Shown one piece after another: positions 1-31,276 of a stretch of DNA of 64,000 bases. A model generated the notes under the pieces. The model did not search any database. It was not told the origin of the DNA and was given only the letters and a program-made list of their open reading frames with translations. Positions within the stretch are counted from its first letter, which is position 1. Every line of letters begins with the position of its first letter. A program made the position numbers and the translations under genes. The stretch comes from Kastovskya adunca ATA6-11-RM4 (lineage in GTDB: Bacteria; Cyanobacteriota; Cyanobacteriia; Cyanobacteriales; Coleofasciculaceae), in NCBI GenBank assembly GCA_019359445.1, contig JAHHHJ010000005.1:124001-188000 (forward strand), read 5' to 3'.

Positions 1-1724
1 TACCAGATATTAGTGCTGGTGAGGGGAAGTTAGAAGGTGCCACAGACTTCAAACTCGATCCCACTCGTCGCCCTAATGGTATTCGACTAATTAACGGTCG
101 CATTTTAGCCCGTGGCGCTAACAATGCATACAACGCTGATGAAAAGGGCTTGATTCTCGCCTCAGACTTGCCAGTCTATATCAAGGGAGAATTCAACCTC
201 CACCAAGAGTTCGGAACTACTACTAGGTTAGAAGAGTTCAAGGCTTCAGATGCATTAGCAGCTAATTACAACAACTTCTATACCCGTGGTAGTACGGGAG
301 CGAATAACAACCGTAATGACAAGTTTGCTTGCCGTCAAAACCAGCAAGGTTGCAGTGGTAACGGTGACCAGTGGCGTGCTGTAAGGATTCTCTCGGATGC
401 TGTCACCCTGCTATCAGGAGACTTCAAGGATGGTGTTCGCAGTAATGGTAGCTACGACGTAAACAACAATGCTGGGAACTTAGCTGTAGAAAAGCGTCTG
501 AAGAATGGCTTCTGGTGGAATGGGTTTGCTACCAGTAGACCTTACTGGAACACCACCCCCAACAGTGTTCCAGAACCAACAACACAGCTAACTTCCTATC
601 TAGCAAATGGTGTAACACCAATTCAACGTCGGGTAAACTTCCCTGAGTACCGAATGGAAATTTGCCGGAAGCTCCCAGTCTCCGAATGTACTCCCACTGA
701 CTGGGATTTGGCAGGAGCAGGTACAACTGCAACACCACCAGCAGCTCTAGCCGATCAAATCTATCCCCGTCGAGTTGCTTTTGATAGAGATCCGGTTTCT
801 AAAAATCTTCTTCCGGTTGGTGGCCCTTACCGACCTTTAGGGGTAGGTTGCCCAACTACTGGATGTATATACGGTGGTACAACAGTAGGTACTAACTATG
901 GCACCCCTAATGACAATGCCCTTTGGTTCTGGACAACAAATTCCACTACCAATCCAGGAGCAATCGGCGATCGCGTTTACACCGCAAACCGACCGCTGTT
1001 CTATCTACCTCCTGCGGATTTAAATAACGATGGTACCCCTGACCCTGACGGTCAACCCCTGTTAGTACCAGTACTACAGCTACACTCTCCAAACGGAGCA
1101 CCTGGTAATAACGGTACGGCTTTTAACGGTTACATCAACGACTCATGGATGCAGCGGGCTACAGAGACAAGATACAATGGCGTCTTCGTCATGGGCGACT
1201 CTCCCGCCAGACCAGCTAATGCTTCTTATGAAGCTGAGACTGGAGGCGGACTGGTTAACTTCCCACGTTTCTTAGAAGCCTGGGAGGCAGTAAATGAAGG
1301 CGCTCCAGCTGCAGCCAGAATCAATGGTAGCTTTATCCAATTCAAGAAGAGCCTCTTTGCTACTGCACCGTTTGAGGCAGTAGATAGCTTTACTGTAGAC
1401 AACTCCCTCTTTTTCGACGGTGCAAATCCTGACCATACCAGTGCGAACTTTGGCGGATTAAACGACTACAGATACAGAGGTGGTGGTGCTTCCCGACGAG
1501 CACCCTACTACCGCGCACCTGACCGGGCATGGGGTTATGATGTTGGCTTGCTGTCTCAGACTCCTGATTTATTCTCCAAACGATTTGCCTCACCGGATGT
1601 CGGTACTCCTAACGAGTACTACCGAGAAGTGGGTCGAGATGACCCCTGGGTTGAAAGCTTGCTGTGTGGAGTGCACGTCAATGACCCGGACGAGCCTGCT
1701 GTTGAGGGGCTGTCCTGTTCCTAA
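1..1724 (+). CDS. hpsA: HpsA-like hormogonium polysaccharide protein, 5' end outside the window
   Basis: The frame is open from the first bases of the window, so this is the C-terminal part (about 574 residues visible) of a larger protein. An internal TTG at 150 is not a credible start. The visible part is rich in Asn, Gly, Thr and Pro. It has scattered cysteines (for example in PTTGCIYGG and LLCGVH) and no membrane segment, as expected for a secreted or surface protein. HpsA is a large protein encoded ahead of pseudopilin genes in the hormogonium polysaccharide locus of filamentous cyanobacteria. The call rests mainly on the four prepilin-like genes that follow, the first only 58 bp downstream, and on the general composition. 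Another large surface protein linked to a type IV pilus or type II secretion-like apparatus is the alternative. Confidence 0.7.
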   Translation, partial: PDISAGEGKLEGATDFKLDPTRRPNGIRLINGRILARGANNAYNADEKGLILASDLPVYIKGEFNLHQEFGTTTRLEEFKASDALAANYNNFYTRGSTGANNNRNDKFACRQNQQGCSGNGDQWRAVRILSDAVTLLSGDFKDGVRSNGSYDVNNNAGNLAVEKRLKNGFWWNGFATSRPYWNTTPNSVPEPTTQLTSYLANGVTPIQRRVNFPEYRMEICRKLPVSECTPTDWDLAGAGTTATPPAALADQIYPRRVAFDRDPVSKNLLPVGGPYRPLGVGCPTTGCIYGGTTVGTNYGTPNDNALWFWTTNSTTNPGAIGDRVYTANRPLFYLPPADLNNDGTPDPDGQPLLVPVLQLHSPNGAPGNNGTAFNGYINDSWMQRATETRYNGVFVMGDSPARPANASYEAETGGGLVNFPRFLEAWEAVNEGAPAAARINGSFIQFKKSLFATAPFEAVDSFTVDNSLFFDGANPDHTSANFGGLNDYRYRGGGASRRAPYYRAPDRAWGYDVGLLSQTPDLFSKRFASPDVGTPNEYYREVGRDDPWVESLLCGVHVNDPDEPAVEGLSCS

Positions 1725-1782
1725 CCTCGATGATTACAGATAGTGAGGTAGCGTTTTTAAAGTCGTAGCTGGTGACCAAACG

Positions 1783-2514
1783 ATGATGAAGCTCAAACTA
1801 AAGCAACTTCCACCCCAACCCAGTCAGTCAGGTTTCACGATTATTGAGTGTTTACTGGCAATTATCATAGTGGGGATTTTGATGACAGGAATTGCGCCTG
1901 CTATTGCTCTTTCTGTAGCAACTAGAGTGCAGGCGCGACGGGTAGAAATAGGAACCCAAGCGGCTAAAGCTTATATCAACAGCGTCCGTGGTAACCCAGA
2001 CGCTGCTGTTAACCCGGACGCTGCGGCGATTACGGAAACAGTTTTCTTAGCGCCTGATGCTCAGAGAATTTTAACTGTAGACCCTCCTGCTGCCAGCACA
2101 AACATAGCTGCGCCCGCAGCTACTTTAGCCGCAGCAAGCTTAACCTGTGTCAATCTTGATAACACTGCTGGCTGTAGCACCAACAGTGCTAGAGACTTAG
2201 TAATTCAAGCATTTCGCAGTACCACTATCAACCCTCCTAGTTCCGACCCGGCAGTAAATGGAGCTGACAGAGCTAAAGGCTACCTTCTTGGGGTCAGAGT
2301 CTATCGAGCAGATGCCTTTGATGGTGGAAGCGCTCTTAACACTAGAGCTACTGTAGGTAGAGCAGGTAGACCATCAGCAACCTTTGCAGGGGGAGGTGGC
2401 GATCGTAAATCCCCATTGGTAGAAATGGTGACAGAGATTCCTCCCACTTCCAGTGATACCGCCTATAAGGATTTTTGCGATCGTCTCGGTGGCTGTAAAG
2501 CTCCTTCTCCATAA
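1783..2514 (+). CDS. hpsB: Pseudopilin, HpsB-like
   Basis: A 243-residue class-III-signal protein. A basic leader of 17 residues ends in Gly17. It is followed by FTIIE (Phe18, Glu22 at +5) and a hydrophobic helix, the classic substrate of prepilin peptidase PilD. The rest is a small globular domain with cysteines near the middle and at the end (CDRLGGC). HpsB-type pseudopilins are thought to form part of a type II secretion/type IV pilus-like machine that exports the gliding polysaccharide of hormogonia. The gene lies 58 bp after the hpsA-like gene and 65 bp before the next pseudopilin, so co-transcription is likely. The start is the first of two adjacent ATGs. Confidence 0.75.
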   Translation: MMKLKLKQLPPQPSQSGFTIIECLLAIIIVGILMTGIAPAIALSVATRVQARRVEIGTQAAKAYINSVRGNPDAAVNPDAAAITETVFLAPDAQRILTVDPPAASTNIAAPAATLAAASLTCVNLDNTAGCSTNSARDLVIQAFRSTTINPPSSDPAVNGADRAKGYLLGVRVYRADAFDGGSALNTRATVGRAGRPSATFAGGGGDRKSPLVEMVTEIPPTSSDTAYKDFCDRLGGCKAPSP

Positions 2515-2579
2515 ATCAGAAAACTGATAGTCAAACTTCAACAGCTCATTACTTGTAGGCACAGGGAGTAAACCGCAAA

Positions 2580-3542
2580 ATGACCGCTTTAATTAGATTT
2601 GTTCTTAACAGTCAGCCAAAGCGAAAACGATCTCAATTAGACGGAAACATTAGCGGCTTTACTCTAATTGAGCTGCTAGTTGGGCTACTTCTAGCATTCC
2701 TCGTCATTGGTCCTTTGCTAGGGTTCATGGTTAATATCCTGGATACAGACCGCAAAGAACAAGCCAAGACAACTTCAGAACAGGAAATTCAATCGGCATT
2801 AGATTACATTGCTAGAGACTTAGAGCAGGCTGTTTACATTTATGATGCGCCTGGAGTAGCGGCGATAGGAGCTCAACTGCCTCCTACGGTTGCACCTACC
2901 ACTGTCGATGGAGTCCCAGTTCTCGTATTTTGGAAGCGACAGTTCATACCAAATGCTTTTGACATGGGGGGCAGTACATTTGACGATGCATTTGTTTACT
3001 CCCTTGTTGCTTACTACCTGATTAAAGATAGTAGCTGTGTTGCTACCTCAACTTGGTCTTGTGCTGCTCGCATTGGTAGGTTTCAAATTAAAGATAGTGT
3101 GAATGCCTCAAATGGTGCGGAAGTGAGAGCTGCCGATCCAGGTTTTAAGCGTTTTGACCTCACCCTAAATAAGCCGACCCTGGCAGAGAAGATGAATCTT
3201 TGGACAAAAGGGACTAGTAATTACACTAGCAACGTTGATACTCTGATTGATTTTGTTGACCAAAGCACGACAGGGGGATTTCCTACACCATCTTGCCCAA
3301 CAGTTACACAGCAAGTACCTAGTTACACAGGCACTGGGGCAGTTGCCGCTCGATTTCAAACAAGTAGCTTCTACGCTTGTGTAGACTCAAGTAAAACAAC
3401 AGCGCAAGTTTTTCTAAGAGGTAACTCCTTAGCTCGCATCAGACCAAAAACTGCCGTTCCTACTTACAGTGCCAGTAACTCTGCCTATTTCCCTAGTGCC
3501 AATGTCACAGTGAAAGGACGTGGTTTACTCGGTGATAACTAA
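2580..3542 (+). CDS. hpsC: Pseudopilin, HpsC-like
   Basis: A 320-residue prepilin-like protein. The 26-residue leader is rich in Lys and Arg and ends in Gly26, followed by FTLIE (Glu31 at +5) and a hydrophobic helix. The long C-terminal domain resembles the GspJ/PilW class of minor pseudopilins and contains several cysteines (DSSCVA, STWSCAA, FYACVD) that could form disulfides outside the cytoplasm. Size and place, directly after the HpsB-like gene, fit HpsC of the hormogonium polysaccharide system. It probably acts in the tip complex of the pseudopilus in the cell envelope. Confidence 0.72.
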   Translation: MTALIRFVLNSQPKRKRSQLDGNISGFTLIELLVGLLLAFLVIGPLLGFMVNILDTDRKEQAKTTSEQEIQSALDYIARDLEQAVYIYDAPGVAAIGAQLPPTVAPTTVDGVPVLVFWKRQFIPNAFDMGGSTFDDAFVYSLVAYYLIKDSSCVATSTWSCAARIGRFQIKDSVNASNGAEVRAADPGFKRFDLTLNKPTLAEKMNLWTKGTSNYTSNVDTLIDFVDQSTTGGFPTPSCPTVTQQVPSYTGTGAVAARFQTSSFYACVDSSKTTAQVFLRGNSLARIRPKTAVPTYSASNSAYFPSANVTVKGRGLLGDN

Positions 3543-5427: not shown

Positions 5428-7728
5428 CTATTGCCCAGCTTGCCGCATCGCTGCGGCTGTTTTCTCCCGGTCTAACTTCAACACCAGCACGCCCAAAGGA
5501 GGCAAGCACAAATCCAGGGAGTAGGGACGAGTGTGGAACGACCATTCATCCGTCCACTTCCCGCCCAGATTCCCCATATTGCTGCCACCGTACTCGCGGG
5601 CGTCGCTGTTGAAGAGTTCGGTGTAGAACCCTGGCTGCGGTACGCCGACGCGGTAATGGCTGTGAGGTTGCGGTGTGAAGTTGCAGACGGTGACGATAAA
5701 CTCCTCGGAATCTTTAGCGTAACGAATAAACGAGACAACACTATGGCGATTGTCGCTACAGTCAATCCACTCAAAGCCATCTTGACTAAAATCTTGAGTG
5801 TGGAGTGCGATTTCTTGTTTATATAGCTGATTCAACTCAGTCATAAACTGCTTGAGTTGTTGATGGGAGGAGTACTGCAACAAGTGCCACTCCAAGTCTC
5901 CCCAGACATTCCACTCACTCCACTGACCAAACTCCATGCTCATGAAGAGAGTCTTCTTGCCAGGGTGAGTAAACATGTAGGCAAATAAACAGCGCACATT
6001 GGCAAACTTTTGCCACTCATCACCCGGTATCTTTCCTAGAAGATTGCTCTTGCCATGAACTACCTCATCGTGAGACAGCGCCAGCATAAAATTTTCTGTA
6101 AACGCATACCAGATGCTAAAGGTGACGTTGTTTTGATGGAACTGGCGGAACCAGGGGTCCATGCTGAAGTAGTCCAGCATGTCGTGCATCCAGCCCATGT
6201 TCCACTTCAAGTTGAAGCCTAAGCCGCCGACGTAGGTTGGCCAAGATACCATTGGCCATTCTGTGGACTCTTCCGCAATTGAGAGCACGCCGGGAAAGTA
6301 GCTAAAAATGATGTGGTTAGTCTGGCGCAGGAAGTCAGCCGCCTCAATATTTTCTCGACCACCGTATTGATTTGGGAGCCATTCCCCTTCAGGACGGAGG
6401 TAATCGAGGTAAAGCATGGAAGCCACTGCGTCTACCCGAATGCCGTCAATGTGATATTTATCAAACCAGAACAGGGCATTGGCTGCAAGGAAGTTCCGGA
6501 CTTCGTTGCGGTTATAGTTGAAGACTAAGGTGCCCCACTCTTTATGCTCGCCCTTGCGGGGGTCAGCGTGTTCGTAAAGGTGGGTGCCATCAAAAAAGGC
6601 TAACCCGTGACCATCTTTAGGGAAGTGACCAGGTACCCAATCCACAATGACACCAATGCCGTTTTCGTGGCACTGGTCTACAAAATACATAAAGTCTTCT
6701 GGCGTTCCATAGCGAGACGTGCAGGCATAGTACCCTGTTACCTGATACCCCCAAGACCCATCAAAGGGATGCTCGGCAATTGGTAGCAGCTCAATATGGG
6801 TAAATCCTGAGTCTTTAACATAGGGAATTAGCTGTTCTGCCAGTTCCCGGTAAGTGAGGAAACGCGCTCCCGGTTTTAGTTCTGAGACAGTAACGACTGG
6901 GGCATCCTCACCGTTAGGCAGTTTGGCGGGTTCAGTAGAAGAGCCATGGAGCCAGGAACCCAGGTGAACTTCATAAACAGAAATTGGCTGCGTCAGGGGT
7001 TCGGTATGACGCCGCTGTTCCATCCACTCAGTATCGTTCCACTTGTAAGTATTGAGGTCAGTAACAATCGATGCGGTCTTTGGTCGCACCTCTTGATAAA
7101 AACCGTAGGGATCTGACTTTTCGTAGATGTGACCGTCGTAGTTTTTGATCTCATACTTGTAGCGATCGCCAGCGCTCAATCCAGGAATAAATAAATCCCA
7201 AATGCCGGTATGACCTTTCCGCATCTGGTGTTTTCGCCCATCCCAGAAATTAAAGTCTCCCATGACGGAGACATTACGGGCATTAGGTGCCCAGAGAGCA
7301 AAGTAAACACCTTTGACACCGTTGATTTCTGCCAAGTGAGCGCCGAGTTTTTCGTAAATTCGATGATGGTTCCCTTCACTGAATAAATGCAGGTCAAAGT
7401 CAGTCAGTAGGGGAGAGGGAAAAGCGTAGGGGTCGTAGATGACTCGTTCGTGTTCTCCTTCCTGGATGCGTAGCTGATAATTTACAAGTTCAGGTGCTTC
7501 AATCATGCACTCAAAAAAATGAGGATGATGCACCGATTGCATAGGATACTCTTTTCGCTCTTCTGGACGAACGACCCAGACCGCATCGGCATTGGGTAGA
7601 TAGGCTCTTACCACCCAGCTAGTTTTGCCATTCTGCTCAATCAGATGGGAACCCAGGACTTCAAAAGGGTCATGATGTTGGTTCCAAACAATTTTGTCAA
7701 TTTGGTCAGGGGCAATCGTTGGGGACAT
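5428..7728 (-). CDS. glgB: 1,4-alpha-glucan branching enzyme
   Basis: A 766-residue GH13 enzyme that cuts alpha-1,4 glucan chains and reattaches them through alpha-1,6 bonds in glycogen synthesis. An N-terminal extra domain (about 1-120) is followed by a CBM48-type domain (about 125-220, [22 protein letters not shown]). The catalytic barrel follows, with Asp433 in RVDAVASML as nucleophile and Glu486 in IAEEST as acid/base, and then a C-terminal beta domain. Length and motif order match cyanobacterial GlgB. The gene is transcribed alone and converges with the pseudopilin gene. The start [13 protein letters not shown] agrees with the family. Confidence 0.97.
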
Positions 7729-8076
7729 TCAGCTATCTACCTCAATGAACATTGGTCAAGAGCGCTTCAATTGTAATATTTATATACATTTTTGCTTTTT
7801 TCTACAGAGCTTTATCCAGCCTAGTAGAGCAGCAGGATTCCATAAATATTGCTAATAGTGTATTTCTATCTTGCCAATCCCTCTAACGTTGAAGTGGGTT
7901 ATCAGCGACGGGGCAAGAAATTTTTAGAATTACTTTAAATGCGATCGCCTGTTGTAAAATCCACTACCGAGCATCACATCACTAGTGGTCTATCGCCACA
8001 GTTCTGATCGGTTATACCAGAAAGGGTAGTCGCGTCTAGTAAAGGTTCTCCCTCTTCAAACATCAAGCCTATGTGC
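7729..8076. other. 348-bp intergenic region upstream of glgB
   Basis: A/T-rich next to the glgB start, with one HIP1 site. No convincing small gene was seen. It must hold the glgB promoter and the 3' region of the small gene at 8077. Confidence 0.5.
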
Positions 8077-8376
8077 TTAAAACGGAGTCACAGTTCTCAG
8101 AAAATTACGTAGACGCAACAAAAAGATATTTCGCCGAATGTCAGGACTCAACTGCGGTGGGGTTGAACGCTGTGCCAACTCTGCTTGCAGTTGGGCATAT
8201 TCAGCCGCTGTCAGAGGCTTGCCATCAATTGGCGATCGCGCCTCCGTAATAATCTCTGTTCGCAGCACCTCTTCTGGCGTCTCTTCTGGTGGCGGTAGTG
8301 CTCCTACGGGTGCAGTCACAGCGATCGCTAATCCCCACCCAAAAAGTAATTGTAGGGGAAATTGAGAGTTTTTCAT
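8077..8376 (-). CDS. Small secreted protein of unknown function
   Basis: A 99-residue protein from the chosen ATG at 8376, which has CGGAG about 9 bases upstream. An ATG 27 bases further out is possible. A short basic N-terminus (MKNSQF) and a hydrophobic stretch ending around TAPVGALPPP look like a signal peptide. The mature part contains EEVLRTEIITEARSPIDG and LTAAEYAQLQAEL, a pattern seen in a small conserved cyanobacterial family without assigned function. The C-terminus is basic and helical. Its ATG overlaps the stop of a short open frame upstream by four bases. Confidence 0.65.
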   Translation of the reverse strand: MKNSQFPLQLLFGWGLAIAVTAPVGALPPPEETPEEVLRTEIITEARSPIDGKPLTAAEYAQLQAELAQRSTPPQLSPDIRRNIFLLRLRNFLRTVTPF

Positions 8377-8576
8377 GCACCTAATCGCTCCGTGAATAGC
8401 CAAGGATAGGCAGGCTTAACGATATGGAGGAATCCAAGGGCTAGAGGACTCAAAAGCACCATTGCTCTATCCGCCTGCGCTAAAGTAGTCTCCAACTCAA
8501 TCACCCTAATTTTGAAGAGTGATCGCCCAACCCGTTCATTGCACCCTTTAGCCGTTCTGCCGTCTAAGAACCTGAA
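8373..8576 (-). other. Possible small or decayed ORF overlapping the next gene
   Basis: An open frame of 67 codons, too short for a confident call. It ends in TGA, which overlaps the ATG of the 8077-8376 gene as ATGA, the arrangement of translationally coupled genes. The first usable start is GTG at 8504 (43 residues). The frame upstream of that still reads plausibly (LDGRTAKGCNERVGRSLFKI), so this may be the 3' remnant of a longer gene. A hydrophobic stretch (AMVLLSPLALGFLHIV) is present. The family was not recognised. Confidence 0.3.
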
Positions 8577-8777
8577 TCACTAATCAACTGAACATAAGAT
8601 AAGTTGATCTGCTTTTTCTGTCCCCACCCATAATTAACAGCGTTTAGATCGTCAAAATATTGGAATAACAGAGGTAGGGGCAGCAAATTTTCAAGCTAAC
8701 CCTCCTCTATCTTGTAGGACATGTAGACTGCTTCTACTTCTAACAGCAGTTTTTCATTTTGTCCTTAGGCATAATGT

Positions 8778-8806
8778 ACGACCCCAGACAGTTGCCTGGG
8801 AGTCGT
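8778..8806. repeat. Hairpin with one bulge, intergenic
   Basis: ACGAC-CCCAG pairs with CTGGG-A-GTCGT around an 8-base loop. It lies downstream of the small lipoprotein gene in that gene's direction but has no T-run, so it may be an RNA 3' end or only a repeat. The remaining sequence between 8577 and 8885 shows nothing else. Confidence 0.4.
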
Positions 8807-8885
8807 AAGTCTGTAAGGTAGCAATCTACTGTGTTTTATTTGGTGCTATGAAAGCAACGATATAGCCCTACACGATTGTTACGAG

Positions 8886-9020
8886 CTAGGGGGCACCAGC
8901 AGGAGACACAGTCTCTATAGGAGATGGCTCAATCGTTTCATCTTCTGCCGCCTGGTCACAGGCTCCTAAGGTAGTAGCCACGGCAAGTACAAGAGCCAAG
9001 CTGAGTAATTTTTTATTCAT
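8886..9020 (-). CDS. Very small lipoprotein
   Basis: A 44-residue protein from the ATG at 9020, which has a strong GAGGAG ribosome site close upstream. An in-frame longer start adds 16 residues and is unlikely. MNKKLLSLALVLAVATTLGAC is a lipoprotein signal peptide with an LGAC lipobox. The mature peptide of about 24 residues is acidic and Pro-rich. This resembles small entericidin-like lipoproteins in size only, and no function can be assigned. Confidence 0.6.
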   Translation of the reverse strand: MNKKLLSLALVLAVATTLGACDQAAEDETIEPSPIETVSPAGAP

Positions 9021-9608
9021 ACACTCCTCTTCAAAGGACGGCTGTAAAGGGAAATTTCGCCAGTCCATTACAATTCTATAGTTTTATCATGGTTGCTTGC
9101 TTTTTCCGCTATCCCGCTGGAAAGATTCAACTTCAGTCAGTCCATTCTTCAACTTTTTGGGGAACAAGGATTGAGCGACTAGCTTATGTATGCCTTGCTA
9201 TCAAAAGCTTGCCCGATCATGGCAGAACCATGAACAACAGATTAATCAATAACTAAATCGCGCCAATTTTTTGTTGTTTCAAATACAATCTTCAATAAAA
9301 GCATCCAGTAGATTAATAAAACTTGCTGATTAGGGTGTAGACCTCATGAGCAATCGCAGGCTAGTACAGGCTTCTAGGGTTTGCATGGTGTCATTGCACT
9401 TTTCCTAACTTAGACATAGGTGACCTTTCGGAAACGTTAACTTGGTAGCACAGCAACAGTTACTAGTTTTTTAAGAAACCTATTGGCAAGCCTTGAAGCG
9501 GTCTCAGGCAATGCGCTGCTACCGGAAACTGAGAAATGTCCCCGAAGAACCTCTCAGGTAACATTACAACCCTCCCGATCCGTCTAGGCATTTAGAGTCG
9601 TCAATGTC
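9021..9608. other. Intergenic region between divergent genes
   Basis: About 590 bp separate the lipoprotein gene (minus) from the histidine kinase gene (plus). No ORF with codon structure, tRNA or repeat was found. It presumably contains both promoters. Confidence 0.45.
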
Positions 9609-9617
9609 TTGACTATT

Positions 9618-11780
9618 ATGCCAAAGCCAAACAAAGGGGGAGAAGAAGTATTTTTAACGCTAGAGGCATTGTGTTCCGTGATTATTGACAATGTGCGGCA
9701 ATTGTTTCCAGCTTGGCGAAAGTATCCCCGGCAGCAAATGCAAATGATCCAGAAGATTGTTGAGCGCATCCGTAATTCATTGGAACTCAACGTTGTTTTA
9801 CAAACAGTGGTAGATGAAATTGCCCAGTTGTGGCGTTTAGAGTGCTGTAGCTTCCTGTGGTACTTTGAGGACACCCAACAAGTACAAGTTGTCTGCGATC
9901 GCCGCTACGGCACCTTAGAGACATCGCTTTTGGGTTATTACTCTTTAGAAAGTTTTGGGAAAGAGGCAAAAGCGATCGCTACTGGGGAAGTAATCCTCAA
10001 TTCTGGTTCGCTAGCTTCCCAACTACAAATTCCTGAAGTTTTGAGACGACTGTTACCGCAACGCCCATTTCTCGTCACCCAACCCAGGGATCAGCTCCTA
10101 GGATTTGATGCTTATCTCCTGATTCCGGTCGCCGGAACTGCGGGTCAGTGGGGGTTTATTGCCTATCTTTCTCAACAGCCCCGTTCCTGGTCAACGGCTG
10201 AAGTGAAATTCTTGCAGTCAATTGTGCCGCCTTTGGAAATTGCGATTCATCAAGCCCAACTTTACGAACAAACCCAAAAGCAGGCGCAGCAAGAACGGTT
10301 AGTCAATTCCATTACGAGCAAACTGATTGCCAGCTTCGATCTCGAAGAAATTTTAACCGCTGCGATCGCAGAACTCCTAGAAGCATTGCAAATCGATCGC
10401 TGTTTAGTCCATCTCGTTGAAGATCGAGACGAACCCCAACCTCCCCAATCAGCCTCTGCTAGCTTTCGACGTAAACATCTCTACGAAGTCTGTCGCGAAC
10501 CTTTCCCCTCCTGCTTGGAGGATTTTGACACTCATGGCCCTCTAACGCAATGGGTCATTCAGCATCGGCAGTCAGTACAAATTGCTGATATTACGAAAGA
10601 TGAACGCATCGGTATTGCTAATGCTGAGTACCAACAAGCGCAAATCAAATCCTCTTTCGTGATCCCCGTTCAGGCAAACGGCACTCTCCATGCTCTGCTG
10701 TACCTTAACCAATGTTCTCACATTCGCTATTGGTCACCAAACGATCAGCAATTAACCCAAGCTGTCGCTGACCAACTAGCAATTTCTCTGCAACAAGCCC
10801 ATCTGTATGCCCAAACCCAGCGTCAAGCTGCCCATAGTGCTGCTCAAGCAGAAACCGTGTCCGTCATGCTAGAAGAACTGCGTCATACCCAAGCGCAGTT
10901 AATTCAAAGTGAAAAGATGTCGAGTCTGGGTCAGATGGTGGCAGGAGTTGCCCATGAAATCAACAATCCGATTAATTTCATCTACGGCAATATTCCTTAC
11001 GTTGACAGTTATGTAAGTGACCTAATTTCCTTGGTCAGAGCTTATCAGACAGAGTATTCTAATCCCCCAGCGCAAATCCAACAACTGACAGAAGCCGCAG
11101 AGCTAGATTTTTTACTGAGAGACTTACCTCAAATTTTAAAGTCAATGCGATCGGGCGCAGAACGCATTCATGAGGTCGTGCAGTTATTACAAAAGTTTTC
11201 GCGGCAGAATGAAGCGGCACTGAAAGTCGTTGACCTCAGCGCCGCCTTGGAGAGTACGCTACTGATGCTGCACCATCAACTCGATGGGGAGATTAACATT
11301 GAGCGGCACTACAATCGCCTACCGAAGGTGGAGTGCTATTCCCAACAACTCAACATGGTCTTTTTGAGCCTTCTGACGAATGCAATTGAAGCGTTGCATC
11401 GAGGAGGGGGGGATAATAAAACTATTGTGCTGCGTACAGAATGTCTACCCGCTGCTGTGCCAACAGAGTTTAACTGGGTGCAAATTGCGATCGCTGATAA
11501 TGGATTCGGTATTCAGCCAGAACTGCTGTCTCGCATTTTTGATCCGTTTTTTACCACAAAAGAAACAGGTCAAGGTAGAGGACTAGGGCTAGCGGTAAGT
11601 TATCAAAGCATTGTCAGTCAACACGGTGGGCAATTACTTGTGCAGTCAAAACCAGGTCAGGGTACTGAATTTGTGATCAAAATCCCCGTGCAACAAACTG
11701 CTCCCGCCCCAAAAGCTGAGGCATTAGTATACGCGCCAACTCCGCCCTGCTCCCTCCCAACTCCCTGCTCATCTAGATAA
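9618..11780 (+). CDS. Hybrid-free sensor histidine kinase with two GAF domains
   Basis: About 720 residues. Two GAF domains (about 60-200 and 230-395) are followed by a short coiled-coil and a HisKA dimerisation domain. The phospho-acceptor is His446 in GVAHEINNPINF (counted from ATG 9618). The HATPase_c domain shows the N box (LLTNAIEAL), G1 (IADNGFGI), F (DPFFTTKETG) and G2 (GRGLGLAVS) motifs. No membrane segment is visible, so it is a soluble cytoplasmic sensor. The GAF domains lack an obvious bilin-binding Cys-His motif. No response regulator lies next to it. A TTG nine bases before the chosen ATG is an alternative start. The last residues (CSLPTPCSSR) are encoded by a low-complexity repeat. 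Confidence 0.88.
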   Translation: MPKPNKGGEEVFLTLEALCSVIIDNVRQLFPAWRKYPRQQMQMIQKIVERIRNSLELNVVLQTVVDEIAQLWRLECCSFLWYFEDTQQVQVVCDRRYGTLETSLLGYYSLESFGKEAKAIATGEVILNSGSLASQLQIPEVLRRLLPQRPFLVTQPRDQLLGFDAYLLIPVAGTAGQWGFIAYLSQQPRSWSTAEVKFLQSIVPPLEIAIHQAQLYEQTQKQAQQERLVNSITSKLIASFDLEEILTAAIAELLEALQIDRCLVHLVEDRDEPQPPQSASASFRRKHLYEVCREPFPSCLEDFDTHGPLTQWVIQHRQSVQIADITKDERIGIANAEYQQAQIKSSFVIPVQANGTLHALLYLNQCSHIRYWSPNDQQLTQAVADQLAISLQQAHLYAQTQRQAAHSAAQAETVSVMLEELRHTQAQLIQSEKMSSLGQMVAGVAHEINNPINFIYGNIPYVDSYVSDLISLVRAYQTEYSNPPAQIQQLTEAAELDFLLRDLPQILKSMRSGAERIHEVVQLLQKFSRQNEAALKVVDLSAALESTLLMLHHQLDGEINIERHYNRLPKVECYSQQLNMVFLSLLTNAIEALHRGGGDNKTIVLRTECLPAAVPTEFNWVQIAIADNGFGIQPELLSRIFDPFFTTKETGQGRGLGLAVSYQSIVSQHGGQLLVQSKPGQGTEFVIKIPVQQTAPAPKAEALVYAPTPPCSLPTPCSSR
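11737..11772. repeat. CTCCCTGC-type low-complexity repeat at a gene end
   Basis: Runs of CTCCCT/CCTGCTC units form the last codons of the histidine kinase. The same kind of sequence in opposite orientation (GGGGAGCAGG units) occurs at 36328-36403. Confidence 0.55.
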
Positions 11781-24343: not shown

Positions 24344-27022
24344 TTAATTAGACCCTCGCAACTGCACCCGCTCTCCATAGCTCAATAACTGCTCAATCGT
24401 CGCTAGACGGTTGTTCCAAACCTGGACTTGATAGGGTTGCTCTGCCGTTTGTAGTTGCATCCATCTAGAAAATTGTCTGCGGAATGCCGCCACCTTAGTT
24501 TTGGCTACCGATAAGTTCTGGCTAGAAGGTTCAGTTGCTAGTTGATTTAATGCCGCATTCACAGCATCGGCTTGTCTACTCCAAGCTGTAAGAGAGTCTT
24601 GCTCAACCCGTAATTGATTGGTAGACAACAGGTAGCTCCATTCCCGTTGCAACGCTCCGTAACGAACACTGGCAGCGGCAAACGGCTGACGGTGAGGTAA
24701 AGGCTGATTTGGGGTTTTATCGTTTCTGCCTTGAGTGCGGCTAAATATGCTGTGGAGATTGGTGTTGAGATTTTCTGCGGCAAATAAGGAGTAACCCACT
24801 GCTGCCGAATCCCTGAGAAGCTGAATTTGATCGACAGCGACAATATCCGGTAAGTTCAACAGCCGAATTCCTGGTAAAACCAGTGCTGAACTTAAGCTGG
24901 ATTGCATTAACCACGGCTGCGCCAAGTTTTGGAGCTGATTAGTTTCTAGGGCGTAAGTCATCGGGATAACCAAATCCACATCGCCGCGATTGACCCAATC
25001 TTCCCAGTTTTGTTGTAGTCGTTGCAGACGTTCCCTTCGGGGGATGGGAAAGACGGCGGCGGAGATAATTAGAGAAGGTCGTTTGGCTCGCAGGCGCTGG
25101 GATGCAGTCGCCACAAAGGAATCAATTTGCTGGAGGCGGAAATCTGTCCACTTTTTCCACAACTGGCGATCGCGCGGTGAAATCTTTGCAGGGTCAACTC
25201 CGGTTAATGCCTGAAACTGCTGCCGTGCTGCCATCCCGTAGCCATAGGTTTGATTGGCGCTCTCATCTTGAAAGGGATAGCGGATGTAGTCTAGTTGGAT
25301 GCCATCAACTTCGTAGTTGGTAGCAATTTCCTCTAGTAGTGCAATTAAGTAACGACGCACTTCCGGGTTGGCAGGGTCAAAAAATGGCTTCGTCTGGGTT
25401 AGGGGGATCGTTTGTCCCCGGTTATCATACCCCGCCCAATCGGGATGCTTAGACAGGACTGGGCCAGGATAACTGGCGGGTTGATTGAGCAACAGATTGT
25501 GGCGCTGGTTTCCGGCAGCAAAAATCCACACCCAGGCGTGCAGTTCCATCCCGCGCTCGTGAGCTAGCTTAATCGCCGATTTTAGGGGGTCCCAGCCCTG
25601 AATTTGAGGATTTTGCTCCGGTGCTACTTGACTGGGATAAATCGGATACCCTGCATTCACCGTTTCCAAAAAGACGGTATTAATTCCCGCCGCCGCCAGG
25701 GAGTCCAGAACCTTCGCTAAATTTTTTTCTGAGCCAGCGCGAACAATCGTACCTCGGTCTAGCCACATCGCCCGCACTTCTGAAGAGGCTTGTGGGCGGT
25801 CGGTGGGGTAGCCTTCCCAAAGGATGCGTCGTACCTGCAACCACTCCTGTCTAGCTTGATTGTAATTTTTTTGCTCAACTAGTTGGAGGAAGTTTTGCAG
25901 ACCTGCTCTCGCGGCAACAAGCGATCGCTGGGCGGAACTGAGGGGTGGGGTGCGGTTGCTTACGGTTTGAGCGATCGCTCCTTTAGGACTAGCATCGCCG
26001 GATTGAGCAGCAGATGCTGCGGCTTGCAAAGTTATGTTGCTACTGGTCGCCTCAGAAGCGAGTAAGGCACTCTCAAAGCGACCGATGAGATTTTCTAGTT
26101 CCTGACGCATCGCCGTTACTTGGGCCGCAGAGAGACGCTCTCCTGCACGAGGTAGCACGGTGGCTGGGGGAGACACGACATCATCCGTGCCGACTTGCGC
26201 TGTGGTGGTTCCCGATTTCGGACTGCGGTTAGCGGTTGTACCGCCTGAGGAGCAGGATTGTTGAGAGTCTGTCGAGACGGAACCGCCCGCCGTTGGGGTT
26301 TCCCCATAACGCCCTAGGGCGGCTGTTAACCAGGCACTATCTAAGGCAGTAGTCGAAACTGCATCCACCCCCCAGCGCCAGCCGAGGAAGACGGATTTAT
26401 CGGTGGTGACAACCGCAGGTGGAGTGTCGCTAGACTTCCAAACCGCAACTGTTGACGAGTTCAACCCGGCAGGAATTACAACCCCACCGGAGACATTGCC
26501 TGCTAGCCCATCCTGGCGCACCCAGGGTTGGGTATTGACCCGTAAGGGTTCCAACGAAGAAGGAGCAGTGAGGGCAAAGCCCCAGTAGGCACCGAGAAGC
26601 GATCGCAACCGAGTTCGCACATCGGGTTGGGATAAACTACCTGTTGGCCCGCTAGCAATGACTCGCCCACCTTTTTCCATCCATTCTTGTAAGGCGACGA
26701 TTTGTTGAGAATTGAGAATTTCGACATTAGGCAAAAATAGCAACTTTGTTCCGCCTAAATCAGCAGCCCGCGACCACTGAGGCAAATCAACCACACAATA
26801 ATTAACACCTGTCGCCTGTAATCGAGCCGAAATTCCTTCCCATTGCCCAGCATTTTCTGGCGCTTTCACAACGCCGAGCCTAGGTGTTTGGGCATTGGCA
26901 GAGACTGTAAAGAGTAAGGCAAATGGTAAAAGTAAGACAGAATTTTTCCAACCTGTCCATAGGCTTTTGCCGATACGCTTGTGGATTGGCGCTCGGTTAG
27001 CACTAAAACCTATTCTCAACAC
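24344..27022 (-). CDS. Secreted GHL10 (DUF187) family glycosyl-hydrolase-like protein
   Basis: An 892-residue protein with a signal peptide (basic start, then SVLLLPFALLFTVSANA). Residues about 50-140 look like a GATase1/ThuA-like fold (RLGVVKAPENAGQWEGI, GGRVIASGPTG). The middle is low-complexity Ser/Thr/Gly. Residues about 410-730 form a GHL10 TIM barrel (AMWLDRGTIVRA, HAWVWIFAAGNQRHN, VDGIQLDYIRYPF). Related proteins act on envelope polysaccharides or lack proven activity. The C-terminus has heptad-like helices. It probably acts in the periplasm or outer envelope. It converges with the GH57 gene without an obvious functional link. Confidence 0.85.
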   Translation of the reverse strand: MLRIGFSANRAPIHKRIGKSLWTGWKNSVLLLPFALLFTVSANAQTPRLGVVKAPENAGQWEGISARLQATGVNYCVVDLPQWSRAADLGGTKLLFLPNVEILNSQQIVALQEWMEKGGRVIASGPTGSLSQPDVRTRLRSLLGAYWGFALTAPSSLEPLRVNTQPWVRQDGLAGNVSGGVVIPAGLNSSTVAVWKSSDTPPAVVTTDKSVFLGWRWGVDAVSTTALDSAWLTAALGRYGETPTAGGSVSTDSQQSCSSGGTTANRSPKSGTTTAQVGTDDVVSPPATVLPRAGERLSAAQVTAMRQELENLIGRFESALLASEATSSNITLQAAASAAQSGDASPKGAIAQTVSNRTPPLSSAQRSLVAARAGLQNFLQLVEQKNYNQARQEWLQVRRILWEGYPTDRPQASSEVRAMWLDRGTIVRAGSEKNLAKVLDSLAAAGINTVFLETVNAGYPIYPSQVAPEQNPQIQGWDPLKSAIKLAHERGMELHAWVWIFAAGNQRHNLLLNQPASYPGPVLSKHPDWAGYDNRGQTIPLTQTKPFFDPANPEVRRYLIALLEEIATNYEVDGIQLDYIRYPFQDESANQTYGYGMAARQQFQALTGVDPAKISPRDRQLWKKWTDFRLQQIDSFVATASQRLRAKRPSLIISAAVFPIPRRERLQRLQQNWEDWVNRGDVDLVIPMTYALETNQLQNLAQPWLMQSSLSSALVLPGIRLLNLPDIVAVDQIQLLRDSAAVGYSLFAAENLNTNLHSIFSRTQGRNDKTPNQPLPHRQPFAAASVRYGALQREWSYLLSTNQLRVEQDSLTAWSRQADAVNAALNQLATEPSSQNLSVAKTKVAAFRRQFSRWMQLQTAEQPYQVQVWNNRLATIEQLLSYGERVQLRGSN

Positions 27023-29127: not shown

Positions 29128-29925
29128 TTAGAGAGTCAATACAGTTTTTAGAGACTTAATTTTTGCGGTATCAATGCCGCATTCCAGTTTGGTTATAGGA
29201 TTTAAGCTTCTCCATTTTCCTTTGCTAGCCGTAAATATAGCATCAGCTACCTTATCGGGATTGATAGCTTCAAAATCACCTATCTTATAGGTTGATAAGT
29301 AGTTGAGACGCTCAAAAATTTCTTCTCTCGATGCGCGTTTTACACTAATAGTTGCTGGTGGTGGTGGCGTTTTCAACTTGGGTGTAGGTGAGAAGAAAAA
29401 TACTTGTTTTAGAGCATCTAATTTCTTACCTTTAATTATTCCACACTTGAGGCTAGGAATAGCATTAAAGTTTTTCCAGGTTTCTCTATCTGTTTCCGCG
29501 ATGCGATTGGTAGCTTTAAGAACATCCAATCCCTTTAATGGGCTAGTTGGTTCTGAAACTAAATATCTGAGTGCAGACAGGATGGTATCTCTCGACGCTG
29601 TATTGAGATTTACCTTGGGAGAAACTTCTTGCGCCAGAATTTTCGCTTGCTCAATGTTTTGCGGCTCTGGATCGATAACAATACACCAAACCCTTTCTAA
29701 CTCAGCTTGTTGGGCAACTGCATAGACAAAATGATTGCTAACAACTTGGTACTGGTAGTCACCAGTTTCCTTAACGATAACAGGAATCCAATTTCGACCA
29801 CCCGATTGCAAAACAGCCTTAGCGGCTGCGTCAACAATAAACTCTGAACCAGAATAATCTTCTCCCGGTTCTATATCTTCTAAAGGTAAGTGCATCAAAT
29901 TACCAAGATTGTCAAAATCACCCAT
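29128..29925 (-). CDS. ParB/Srx-like protein with duplicated C-terminal domain, partner of a ParA-nuclease fusion
   Basis: A 265-residue protein from the chosen ATG at 29925, which has GAGGAG 10 bases upstream inside the preceding gene. Residues about 10-95 resemble the ParB/sulfiredoxin-like N-domain (MHLPLEDIEPGEDY, NWIPVIVKETGDYQYQVVS). Two copies of a roughly 70-residue unit follow (about 100-175 and 190-262). They share AS-R-(D/E)-x-I, then W-(K/R)-x-(F/L)-N-x-I, L-x-C-G-I and LK-x-V. The first begins VNLNTAS, reminiscent of helix-hairpin-helix starts. No known domain fits the duplicated unit with certainty, and DNA binding is an inference. The start overlaps the end of the ParA-like gene, so the two are translationally coupled. 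Confidence 0.65.
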   Translation of the reverse strand: MGDFDNLGNLMHLPLEDIEPGEDYSGSEFIVDAAAKAVLQSGGRNWIPVIVKETGDYQYQVVSNHFVYAVAQQAELERVWCIVIDPEPQNIEQAKILAQEVSPKVNLNTASRDTILSALRYLVSEPTSPLKGLDVLKATNRIAETDRETWKNFNAIPSLKCGIIKGKKLDALKQVFFFSPTPKLKTPPPPATISVKRASREEIFERLNYLSTYKIGDFEAINPDKVADAIFTASKGKWRSLNPITKLECGIDTAKIKSLKTVLTL

Positions 29926-31276
29926 GGCAAAAATACTCCTCAATTAATTTGTGATAGTATTTGTAAGCAGTAATATCTTTTAAAGCTGCTGGAACTCGGT
30001 AAAATACCGAATTTGAAACAATTGCGTATCCAGGAATACTAAATATTGTTTGGTTTTTATCTCCTGTACAATATTTCGGCCAGTAATAGGGCAATAAATC
30101 AAAATTCTTTGTTCTTTTAATGGTAATAATAAGCTTATATATAGCCGTATTTACTGCCTCTATTTGAGGGTCAGTTATTTTTTCGCCATTAAAAAATATT
30201 GGAAGTGCAACTGGGCCCCCGTCTCCCCTTTGATTTTTTACTTGTGGAATGAAATGTTTAATAACTTTAGCTGCATTCTCTAACGATGTTAAACTGTTGT
30301 GTTTTGTGGGAATGAGAATGACATCAGCTGAGTAGACGCTACTTTGACTAAAAAACATCCAGTTAGCAGGACAATCAATCAGTATGTAGTCATAATCATT
30401 CACCAATGGTTTAAGCAAGTCTCGCAGTCTAGCAGCGCGTTTCTGTATACTTGTAGTTATATGGCTAAGAGCATCTAAGTTTGAATCTGAAGGAATAACA
30501 TCAAACTTGACCTTGTTTCCGCATTTGTATTGAACCTGAAAAGGCTGAATTGCTTTACGAACACTCAGGGTAGGATTTATTAAACAATTCGATAGAGTTA
30601 CGATTCCTTCTTGTAGCCCCAGAGAGTTAGTTAAATCTTTTTGCTGCGGATCAAAATCGACTACAAGAACTTTTTTGCCTAATTTAGCGAAAGTAGCCGC
30701 TAAATTTATAGTTGTTGTAGTTTTACCTACTCCTCCCTTATTGTTGTAAATGCAAACTGTTAAAGCTTTGGGAGGTTTTTCTAATAAAGTTTTGATTCCA
30801 GAAATGATATTGTTAATATTACTTTCCTTAATTAAAAGATTAGGGGTAGCAGGAACGACAACTTTCTCGTGTCGCCGAAATAGTTGAATATGATTTGCAT
30901 TAGTAATAATGCCCCATTGAGCTGTTTTACATTTAGGGGCAAGAAGATATTGCTGAATTTGATGTTTTGTCTTTTTGTAGTGAGGAGTATCTTCTGCTAA
31001 GTTAATCGTAGCTCCACTGGCTATTGCTCTACCCTTGACTTCAACAAGTAAATAGGGGTTATTAGGAGAAGATAAAAAAATATCACCATCAGAATTTTCC
31101 CGAGCGGCAAAATCTACTGATTTAGCACCGTCCCCAGTTTTAAATTGTGGATGTCGCTCTAGATCGTTGAATCCTAGTGCGTCTAAAAGTGGCTCTACAA
31201 ACTGGCTGCTGACGATAGATTCTGTTGCATTTGGTGGAAGATAAGCCAAAATTCGGCTCCAGTCTGTGTTTGTCAT
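29918..31276 (-). CDS. Fusion of a PD-(D/E)XK nuclease-like domain with a ParA/MinD-type ATPase
   Basis: A 452-residue protein. Residues about 15-145 look like the N-terminal domain of type I restriction HsdR proteins. They contain Glu28, Asp55 (SVDFAAR), Glu79-x-Lys81 (LLVEVKGR) and Q106-x3-Y110 (QIQQY), followed by WGIITNANHIQLF. This is a complete PD-(D/E)XK plus QxxxY set. Residues about 170-440 form a ParA-family ATPase with deviant Walker A KGGVGKTT (180-187), VVDFDPQQ (205-212) and Walker B YILIDCPAN (Asp301). It is followed, with an 8-base overlap, by a ParB-like gene. The DNA is visibly richer in A/T than its neighbours, suggesting transfer. The role could be defence, plasmid-type segregation or DNA targeting. 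None is proven. Confidence 0.75.
   Translation of the reverse strand: MTNTDWSRILAYLPPNATESIVSSQFVEPLLDALGFNDLERHPQFKTGDGAKSVDFAARENSDGDIFLSSPNNPYLLVEVKGRAIASGATINLAEDTPHYKKTKHQIQQYLLAPKCKTAQWGIITNANHIQLFRRHEKVVVPATPNLLIKESNINNIISGIKTLLEKPPKALTVCIYNNKGGVGKTTTTINLAATFAKLGKKVLVVDFDPQQKDLTNSLGLQEGIVTLSNCLINPTLSVRKAIQPFQVQYKCGNKVKFDVIPSDSNLDALSHITTSIQKRAARLRDLLKPLVNDYDYILIDCPANWMFFSQSSVYSADVILIPTKHNSLTSLENAAKVIKHFIPQVKNQRGDGGPVALPIFFNGEKITDPQIEAVNTAIYKLIITIKRTKNFDLLPYYWPKYCTGDKNQTIFSIPGYAIVSNSVFYRVPAALKDITAYKYYHKLIEEYFCHG

Follow-up and report, generated by a model that had tools for sequence, protein, structure and literature searches.

The window, by which we mean the whole stretch of 64,000 nucleotides analysed here, contains a two-gene unit in which a PD-(D/E)XK nuclease domain is fused to a ParA ATPase (gene A) and coupled to a partner with a ParB fold (gene B), a partner that has lost the parts with which ParB handles CTP and reads parS (Table 1). 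The explanation that we tentatively put first, giving it somewhat less than an even chance, is that gene A would be an ATP-gated, nucleoid-bound DNase and gene B a DNA-tethering adaptor, the pair removing foreign or aberrant DNA.

The start of gene B was taken to be the ATG at 29925, where the list of open reading frames had an upstream TTG (29943), because this ATG is consistent with where the genes of relatives begin. Bases 29918-29925 are common to the two genes, and the overlap of eight bases reported in the preliminary description is thus confirmed, its coordinates and strand being right.

Table 1. Features of the two-gene unit, in window coordinates
Feature	Positions	Strand	Description or basis
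Gene B	29128-29925	minus	265 aa; ParB/Srx-fold domain and two HhH-like units; 8-bp overlap with gene A
Gene B ParB/sulfiredoxin-fold domain, residues 8-102	29620-29904	minus	structure matches 7bnk, 6ky4
Gene B SNHFVY at the place of ParB's GERR nucleotide box	29722-29739	minus	alignment
Gene B putative HhH-like unit 1, residues 104-182	29380-29616	minus	structure match, self-alignment, shuffles
Gene B putative HhH-like unit 2, residues 190-265	29131-29358	minus	self-alignment, shuffles
Gene A	29918-31276	minus	452 aa; fusion of an HsdR_N-like PD-(D/E)XK domain with a ParA/Soj-type ATPase
Gene A nuclease domain, residues 1-168	30773-31276	minus	HSDR_N_2, model secondary structure, hhalign
Gene A E19, conserved acidic residue, first long helix	31220-31222	minus	alignment
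Gene A D55, catalytic Asp	31112-31114	minus	alignment
Gene A E79-x-K81, catalytic (D/E)xK	31034-31042	minus	alignment
Gene A Q106-x3-Y110, on the helix after E79-x-K81	30947-30961	minus	alignment
Gene A ParA/Soj ATPase domain, residues 169-452	29921-30772	minus	AAA_31, 6iub
Gene A deviant Walker A KGGVGKTT, K180-T187	30716-30739	minus	alignment

Domains and conserved residues of the two proteins

The residues of gene A were evaluated in an alignment of 67 rows, consisting of the window protein and 66 relatives with 45-60% identity to it, drawn from the 79 loci that have a gene A match near gene B; the other 13 loci, in which gene A counted from its first ATG is shorter than 420 amino acids owing to contig ends, alternative starts or broken frames, are not part of the set. 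In the Pfam scan of the window protein the ParA domain matches AAA_31 at 1.2e-35, and it matches the Soj structure 6iub with a Z score of 30.2 over 254 residues at 2.6 Å. The deviant Walker A motif, the Walker A' aspartate and Walker B are all present in the alignment, with K180, K185, D209 and D301 each found in 67 of 67 rows, which bears out the earlier assignment of a ParA ATPase with intact Walker motifs. It is also through the ParA part that gene A matches the partition-protein family PHROG 164 at 1.9e-37; among the best 25 of its 37 NCBIfam matches no curated partition model is passed, and the best match, ParA_partition, scores 72.8 bits where 180 are required.

The HsdR-type PD-(D/E)XK domain that had been proposed for the N-terminus is recovered in the family: HSDR_N_2, which falls below the Pfam cut-off in the window protein taken alone (0.0032), matches 52 of the 67 members at 0.01 or better, the window protein among them (best value 8.1e-8), and exceeds the cut-off in a remote copy from the same genome (32.6 versus 25 bits). 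Comparison of the window nuclease domain with the remote subfamilies by hhalign gave 94.5% for subfamily III and 98% for subfamily II. Sequence searches yielded no convincing solved relative of this domain, and structure searches with the whole of gene A returned result lists filled by ParA chains. The nuclease fold was judged from sequence profiles and secondary structure only; the model of the N-terminal domain has the expected order of elements with the motif residues in place, which is the nuclease layout on which the earlier interpretation had depended.

The catalytic set named in the preliminary description is conserved, with D55 present in 66 of 67 rows, E79, K81 and Q106 in all 67 and Y110 in 63, and E19, likewise fixed in 67 of 67, can be added to it; the conservation of these nuclease residues, Y110 apart, equals that of the Walker motifs across the 67 sequences. 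In a wider set of 28 sequences the counts are 27 for E19, 27 for D55, 28 and 27 for E79 and K81, 19 for Q106 and 27 for Y110. A single row from subfamily II, another from subfamily III, one singleton and four rows of the lineage that has gene A alone likewise all keep E19, D55, E79 and K81. At one locus (L011) D55 and K81 are lost and the open frame is still intact. To judge from these alignments, the N-terminal domain has a complete active PD-(D/E)XK residue set, and cleavage is predicted.

The analysis of gene B was based on 76 members, a set that excludes loci L080, L082, L092 and L128. ParB_N falls below the Pfam cut-off in the window protein (0.0048) and is found in 75 of the 76 members at 0.1 or better. 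By sequence, the solved relatives of gene B are weak matches only; its model matches ParB (7bnk) with a Z score of 12.7 over 90 residues at 2.1 Å, and sulfiredoxin (6ky4) with a Z score of 9.8, so the ParB/Srx-like domain that had been assigned to the second gene stands. At the place where three canonical ParBs, aligned for comparison, have GERR, the family reads [GSA]NxF, with N64 in 76 of 76 members and F66 in 75. HTH_ParB, which is detected in the three canonical ParBs at 1.9e-10 to 5.6e-10, is not among the best 25 of 27 Pfam families in the 76 members and is absent from the window protein, whose sole Pfam match is ParB_N. The pattern G[KR]G[LFI], given in a published survey as the ParA-binding motif near the ParB N-terminus (PMC12704722), occurs within the first 40 residues in 0 of 76 members. 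With all three of these ParB elements gone, gene B probably does not act as a clamp on parS.

The remainder of gene B consists, as had been noted, of two copies of one unit, which share 28% identity (E 3e-9 for a single comparison) and give a repeat score of 83, where shuffled sequences average 24.4 and 0 of 2000 shuffles score as high. Weak matches suggest that the unit looks like a helix-hairpin-helix/SAM-like domain. Elsewhere in the family, where tail types were taken from Pfam, the tails match Rho_N in 43 and SAP in 27 of the 76 members, and the gene B partners in remote subfamilies have HHH matches below the cut-off; the tails are therefore predicted to be domains of DNA-binding types.

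Distribution and genomic setting

Gene B matches were found in 105 of 388 genomes of the cyanobacterial class, and subfamily I of gene A in 78 of 291, in a patchy distribution over 43 of 131 genera. The coupling of the two genes is close, since gene A lies directly before gene B in 75 of 80 loci at a spacing of -50 to +19 bp, with an overlap of 4 or 8 bp in 63 of these 75; gaps of 211-670 bp occur in 4 of the 79 loci with a gene A match near gene B, and one locus (L129) has gene B with no gene A match. A third gene is not general, because among 64 downstream neighbours of at least 90 amino acids only 1 is within 30 bp and has the same orientation.

At least three remote subfamilies of the unit exist, plasmid copies included, as do broken or dead copies, and the window genome itself has a second, remote copy of the nuclease-ParA architecture, which adjoins two further MinD/ParA-like genes. 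One lineage (g93), which we take to be linked to Thermosynechococcus, has gene A without gene B and has kept the nuclease residues; against this pattern, a contig of a Thermosynechococcus metagenome-assembled genome (L075) carries gene B and a partial gene A. A first scan of genome contigs with gene A alone gave no matches.

The neighbourhood was examined through the 121 nearest neighbours of the unit. PADLOC models at 1e-10 matched 24 families, each represented in at most 3 of these neighbours, where the figures are raw, uncontrolled counts of families and not of distinct proteins; by reading, about ten proteins are concerned. Restriction-modification matches number three, and the best 25 of 118 families include Uma2 (5), PIN (3), HNH (2), BsuBI/PstI restriction (2), RNA 3'-cyclase (6) and GHL10 (6). 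An RNA 3'-cyclase gene directly follows the unit in nine Nostocales loci and is close by in one further locus, rpsB-tsf is beside gene A in four of the five g93 loci fetched, and a GHL10 gene is close downstream in six loci. In the window the GHL10 gene is two genes downstream, and the other neighbours are rhomboid, GNAT and prolyl oligopeptidase genes. The units cluster with taxonomy, and the neighbours at other loci are mixed. No strong linkage to defence or mobile genes was seen in these raw family counts, and no segregation genes are prominent among the recurrent neighbours of the 80 chromosome or contig loci, so that an exclusive association with chromosome segregation, which would have told against the earlier defence reading, is not what the homologues display.

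Phage records gave no match to gene B at E 0.01 and none that covers 80% of gene A, the best 15 of 81 matches to gene A being confined to the ParA part; a viral contig (L134) has ParB-like pieces within a frame of 1633 amino acids.

Function of the unit and rival explanations

Under the explanation that we put first, genes A and B would form one ATP-gated DNA nuclease. Gene A would bind ATP, dimerise and sit on DNA by means of its ParA part, and dimerisation would bring together two PD-(D/E)XK domains that could cut DNA, probably in both strands, once a trigger is met. Gene B would be an adaptor whose ParB-fold domain contacts gene A as ParB contacts ParA and whose tails (HhH, and HhH or SAP/Rho_N) hold DNA, with the effect that cutting would be confined to branched, free-ended, unprotected or foreign DNA; gene A would work alone in one lineage. 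The most likely use would be surveillance of the DNA in the cell, in which incoming or aberrant DNA is cleared.

The preliminary description had proposed a DNA-targeting or defence module. A DNA-targeting role is supported because the nuclease and ATPase motifs are conserved and the gene B tails are of DNA-binding types, while the defence half of the proposal is not supported by the small number of PADLOC matches or by the single chromosomal place at which several lineages keep the unit. The patchy spread, remote subfamilies, plasmid copies and broken or dead copies are as for a dispensable protective function, and the chromosomal places kept in some lineages suit a routine function as well. 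Counting against DNA surveillance are the lack of a clear defence-island signal, the locus without D55 and K81, and the assignment of the ParA part to partition proteins in family libraries.

A further reading, possible and on balance rather doubtful, is that a ParA Walker ATPase, rather than moving cargo, would here provide a restriction-type nuclease with its ATP switch and its clamp on DNA. The nuclease would be licensed by a ParB-fold adaptor, the CTP clamp having been traded for HhH/SAP tethers and the parts of a segregation system rebuilt as a nucleoid-wide surveillance enzyme. The established role of ParA ATPases is to move DNA, organelles and protein clusters; if this reading is true, the ParA switch would also govern cutting, in about a quarter of the sampled genomes of the class. 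The lineage with gene A alone and the dead-nuclease variant provide natural controls. The form with gene A alone also appears to be present in a thermophilic cyanobacterium that is open to genetic work, which makes a direct test feasible.

The same domains could instead belong to a genome-maintenance nuclease, which the ParA part would place on the nucleoid and in which the pair would process recombination, replication or damage structures of many-copy cyanobacterial chromosomes rather than invaders. The kept chromosomal places and the clustering with taxonomy speak for this account, as do two genomes that have gene A without a partner: in G192 it closely follows a RecJ gene of the same orientation, while another RecJ-like gene is convergent, and in G161 it adjoins a gyrase/topoisomerase A gene. 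Many repair proteins, moreover, contain HhH-type domains. Since subfamily I of gene A is missing from 213 of the 291 class genomes, and since there are plasmid copies, broken copies and mixed neighbours at other loci, we regard it as rather unlikely.

An unusual partition or positioning system, in which ParA moves DNA bound by gene B and the role of the nuclease-like domain is limited to holding DNA or eliminating rival replicons, is unlikely. It is suggested by the adjacency of a ParA and a ParB-fold partner, by the MinD/ParA-like genes beside the second copy in the window genome, by an ordinary ParAB pair about 1 kb from the unit at one plasmid locus (L041), and by the 12.6-kb plasmid ABRG53g, in which a subfamily II pair holds the only annotated ParA and short repeats of GTAAC, 14 in number, fall within 411-873, beyond gene B across the record start. 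These repeats do not cluster in the other plasmids scanned, and partition is already served on the Nostoc plasmids that carry the unit, two of three having ordinary ParAB pairs and two of three a ParM gene. A centromere was sought in alignments of the upstream regions of three locus groups, in inverted- and direct-repeat counts compared with those of simple shuffles, and in a repeat search of plasmids. Inverted repeats of 8 bp number 0.32 per upstream stretch of 300 bp (65 loci) against 0.058 in shuffles and 0.10 per downstream stretch (67 loci); those upstream are clade-specific, the window upstream region has none with arms of at least 7, and no centromere or parS shared among the upstream regions and plasmids scanned was found. 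The replicon-stability system suggested in the preliminary description is weakened by the lack of the HTH, the GERR box, the ParA motif and, in the regions scanned, a shared parS, and by the conserved nuclease site, and retains the single small plasmid in its favour. The clade-specific, operator-like upstream repeats, together with the capacity of SAP/Rho_N tails to bind RNA, would also fit a retained nuclease fold that acts on RNA or serves as a binding module, with ATP switching in control of expression or of a toxin-like shut-off; this is improbable, given that the catalytic set is complete and that HsdR-type PD-(D/E)XK domains are DNA enzymes. Membership of the PADLOC candidate defence system PDC-M28 has hardly any probability: the PDC-M28B model matches gene A at 2.6e-9 and covers only residues 102-209 of 452, true members differ in ATPase motif, N-terminus and neighbours, and PDC-M28B has no match in the window genome at 1e-15.

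Comparison with known systems

The unit resembles ParABS (Soj-Spo0J) in its ParA ATPase with intact motifs and in the ParB-fold partner encoded just downstream, and differs from it in that its ParA bears a nuclease domain and its partner is without the ParB-specific parts discussed above. With the N-terminal domain of HsdR in Type I restriction (HSDR_N_2) it shares the domain family and the D-ExK and QxxxY set; the motor of gene A is a ParA, no SF2 helicase domain appears in the Pfam scan, and no HsdM or HsdS partners were noticed by eye among the open reading frames of 24-37 kb of the window. PDC-M28 likewise has a ParA-like ATPase, and its full-length (L042) and partial (L043, L044) representatives are KGGVGR ATPases with another N-terminus, other neighbours and other partners.

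The Type IV restriction enzymes GmrSD also have a ParB-fold domain that works with a nuclease, one of another superfamily, and to our knowledge they do not include a ParA part; their architecture is given as ParB and HNH in the part of the source consulted (PMC12839542). The ParB-DUF3850 fusion is a further divergent ParB-fold fusion found constantly beside parA, with another fused domain and in a prophage context. Because the excerpted text of the survey names it as the sole fusion consistently beside parA, in prophages (PMC12704722), the nuclease-ParA unit is not among the fusions reported in that text. In the journal literature searched, no fusion of a nuclease to ParA that is accompanied by a ParB-like protein was found described. 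Among viral structures the best match to gene A is a phage ParA of 456 amino acids (A0A8S5RVM6 in BFVD, Siphoviridae sp. ctHip2), which aligns over 405 columns at E 4.7e-8 with a TM score of 0.43 and could be a candidate relative of the fusion. The unit of genes A and B is outside the definitions of ParABS, PDC-M28 and HsdR, while sharing with each of them the parts described here.

Gene A as a fusion of nuclease and ATPase

Gene A, which encodes an HsdR-type PD-(D/E)XK nuclease domain fused to a ParA ATPase, and gene B, which encodes a ParB/Srx-fold partner, overlap by 8 bp, as the preliminary description reported and as the coordinates of the two open reading frames confirm. That description also assigned to gene A the catalytic set D55, E79-x-K81 and Q106-x3-Y110 and intact Walker motifs, and both assignments hold in an alignment of 67 A proteins, where E19, E79, K81 and Q106 occur in all 67 rows, D55 in 66 and Y110 in 63, and the ATPase residues K180, K185, D209 and D301 in 67 each. 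Mean column conservation is 0.64 and 0.65 in the two halves.

The ATPase part is matched by AAA_31 in Pfam (residues 173-343, 1.2e-35), carries the PHROG label partition protein (1.9e-37), and matches the Soj/ParA structure over residues 169-452 (Z 30.2, 2.6 A, 254 residues), a comparison outside which the first domain lies. The best viral structure match to A is a 456-aa phage ParA (BFVD A0A8S5RVM6, 405 columns aligned). The nuclease part of the window protein matches HSDR_N_2 in Pfam at only 0.0032; with that protein included, 52 of the 67 members match at 0.01 or better (best 8.1e-8), and no NCBIfam cut-off is passed by gene A among the matches listed. The AlphaFold model (pLDDT 93.0, pTM 0.92) places in the first domain, in order, helix 19-33, strands 41-46, 53-58 and 76-80, helix 98-111 and strands 121-125 and 129-136, which is the order of elements in PD-(D/E)XK domains; D55 falls on strand 53-58, E79 and K81 at the end of strand 76-80, and Q106 and Y110 on helix 98-111.

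Profile comparison of the nuclease domain of the window's own type of A (subfamily I) with those of two remote subfamilies of the same architecture (II: probability 98.0, E 2.4e-13; III: probability 94.5, E 7.9e-8) indicates that the three are related. A broader 28-row alignment that includes II and III has E79 in all 28 rows, D55, K81, E19 and Y110 in 27 each and Q106 in 19. The only row without D55 and K81 is L011, where an open frame carries G and T at these positions and which is, judged by these residues, a natural dead-nuclease variant.

Positions of the gene pair and of related features
Feature	Sequence	Position	Strand	Remark
Gene A	window	29918-31276	minus	open reading frame
Gene B	window	29128-29925	minus	open reading frame
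GHL10 gene	window	24344-27022	minus	two genes downstream of B
Second operon, HsdR_N-ParA + ParB_N	locus L135 (window's genome G000, contig C20, about 122.3-124.5 kb)	973-3098		profile matches
Two more MinD/ParA-like genes (L003, L007)	contig C20	about 124.7-127.7 kb		beside second operon
Split gene A	genome G006, contig C1	1960543-1963650		
14 short GTAAC repeats	plasmid ABRG53g (L038)	411-873		some 400-870 bp beyond gene B, over the record start
1633-aa open frame	L134, IMG/VR contig of 108.9 kb	6120-11021		adjoins phage structural genes

Gene B and its departures from canonical ParB

The ParB/Srx-like domain claimed for the second gene is borne out by a structure search with the model (pLDDT 91.9, pTM 0.61, so that relative domain placement is unsure), in which residues 8-102 match ParB (7bnk, Z 12.7) and Srx (6ky4, Z 9.8). 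Compared with three canonical ParBs from Nostoc plasmids, the position of the GERR box reads SNHF, the QPRRYF stretch is gone, and Pfam finds ParB_N alone, whereas the canonical proteins have HTH_ParB as well. Among 76 aligned B proteins N64 is invariant and F66 is kept in 75, and G[KR]G[LFI] occurs within the first 40 residues of none.

The repeat units of B match XcpX (Z 6.3), chain U from a photosystem II structure (Z 4.1), which we take to be PsbU, FANCM-FAAP24 (2.9) and UvrC (2.7), values below 8 at which a match may reflect a mere common arrangement. HHH_6 is matched below its cut-off in remote partners (7.1e-5 in L027, 0.0029 in L033, 0.0095 in the second copy of the window's genome), and on these weak grounds the units resemble HhH/SAM-like domains. 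Tails of B relatives match Rho_N in 43 of 76 and SAP-like domains in 27 of 76, with overlapping counts. B thus keeps the ParB fold, yet with GERR, HTH_ParB and G[KR]G[LFI] missing and HhH-like units and Rho_N or SAP-like tails present, its design suggests that DNA is held by other means.

The L134 frame holds pieces resembling the ParB-fold domain of B, apparently twice, amid low-complexity stretches.

Coupling, distribution and surroundings of the pair

A B profile search of genome contigs gave 140 loci, of which the best 80, all cyanobacterial by title, were analysed. An A match lies nearby on the same strand in 79 of these 80, with a spacing of -50 to +19 bp in 75; the two genes share 4 bp in 51 loci and 8 bp in another 12. 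A same-strand downstream neighbour (at least 90 aa) within 30 bp occurs in 1 of 64. At L129, gene B has 7.9 kb of upstream sequence and no A match therein. Of 388 genomes of the class, 105 carry B when partial matches are counted (62 of 159 genera); subfamily I A is found in 78 of 291 (43 of 131 genera), subfamily II in 17, and the subfamily III query matches in 72, in part through ParA domains only. A tree of A built by a quick method requires 18 changes of order label (shuffled mean 29.2, minimum possible 8) and groups by taxonomy, yet with mixed clades, which indicates vertical descent within genera and, from order to order, either transfers or old paralogues. Nostoc sp. UHCC 0870 has the unit on three plasmids, and plasmid-borne copies are also found in Leptolyngbya boryana and two Pseudanabaena. 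The L022 copy has an internal stop, and in G006 an insertion of about 1.75 kb, whose ends show a short overlap, interrupts A, which also has a frame change; the frame of B is open there.

The window's genome (5.09 Mb, 37 contigs) carries a second operon, remotely related to the window pair, whose A (464 aa) passes the HSDR_N_2 cut-off (32.6 against 25 bits) and whose B (244 aa), overlapping it by 4 bp, passes that of ParB_N (41.7 against 26.3 bits), and this is independent support for the domains assigned to the pair in the window. A proline/threonine-rich repeat protein lies next to it, between the two MinD/ParA-like genes.

The window pair is flanked upstream by a GNAT acetyltransferase and a prolyl oligopeptidase and downstream by a rhomboid and a GHL10 protein. 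Elsewhere a GHL10-like protein occurs near the unit in 8 loci, close downstream of B in six, and its position in the window may mark an old shared place of the unit. An RNA 3'-cyclase is near in 10 Nostocales loci, directly downstream in 9. The G+C of the 30-32 kb block (0.394) is lower only in the window's last block (0.389), a weak hint at a separate history. Inverted repeats that look operator-like and are clade-specific precede A: CAAACGG-N14-CCGTTTG lies about 10-40 bp upstream in L060, L062, L064 and L124 and spans the called start in L069, and L117 has GAACCGTCAA-N6-TTGACGGTTC; neither type was seen in the window. The GTAAC repeats of ABRG53g could be origin iterons or a centromere; no such clusters occur in the other plasmids scanned.

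Mechanism, use and relation to known systems

B is present in 65 of the 78 genomes with subfamily I A. Twelve of the other 13 belong to family f58 (11 g93, 1 g109) and the last, G300, has a partial A; a direct search at E 0.01, with the B survey of 388 genomes as positive control, found B in none of them. Since four aligned A proteins from such genomes keep E19, D55, E79 and K81, gene A can be retained without gene B, which suggests that A would be the effector and B, which would contact it, a modifier.

Active sites fixed in both halves of A, the gene coupling and the loss from B of the parts that read CTP and parS make the pair likely to be an ATP-switched nuclease and less likely to be a segregation machine. 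The same losses and fixed sites count against an unusual partition system, which we consider improbable. Among the A-only loci fetched (L164-L169, from G151, G201, G125, G192, G183 and G161), rpsB-tsf adjoins A in four of five g93 loci, A lies between two RecJ-like genes in the fifth, and a gyrase/topoisomerase A gene adjoins it in g109; the latter two flanks lend a little support to genome maintenance, a role that appears rather unlikely. For the ATP-switched nuclease, surveillance of foreign or aberrant DNA is proposed tentatively, at somewhat under an even chance. In the 121 nearest neighbours, 24 PADLOC families have matches at 1e-10, each in three neighbours at most; three of these matches are to restriction-modification models, and others are Cas12f/TnpB-like. 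Location does not discriminate between defence, uptake control and repair.

Literature searches found no paper on a nuclease-ParA fusion of this type. The available part of a ParB-fold survey names ParB-DUF3850 as the sole fusion consistently beside parA (PMC12704722). ParB_N falls below its cut-off in the window's B, so the unit may escape such surveys. In an arrangement that we have not found described, the unit combines parts that are themselves known.
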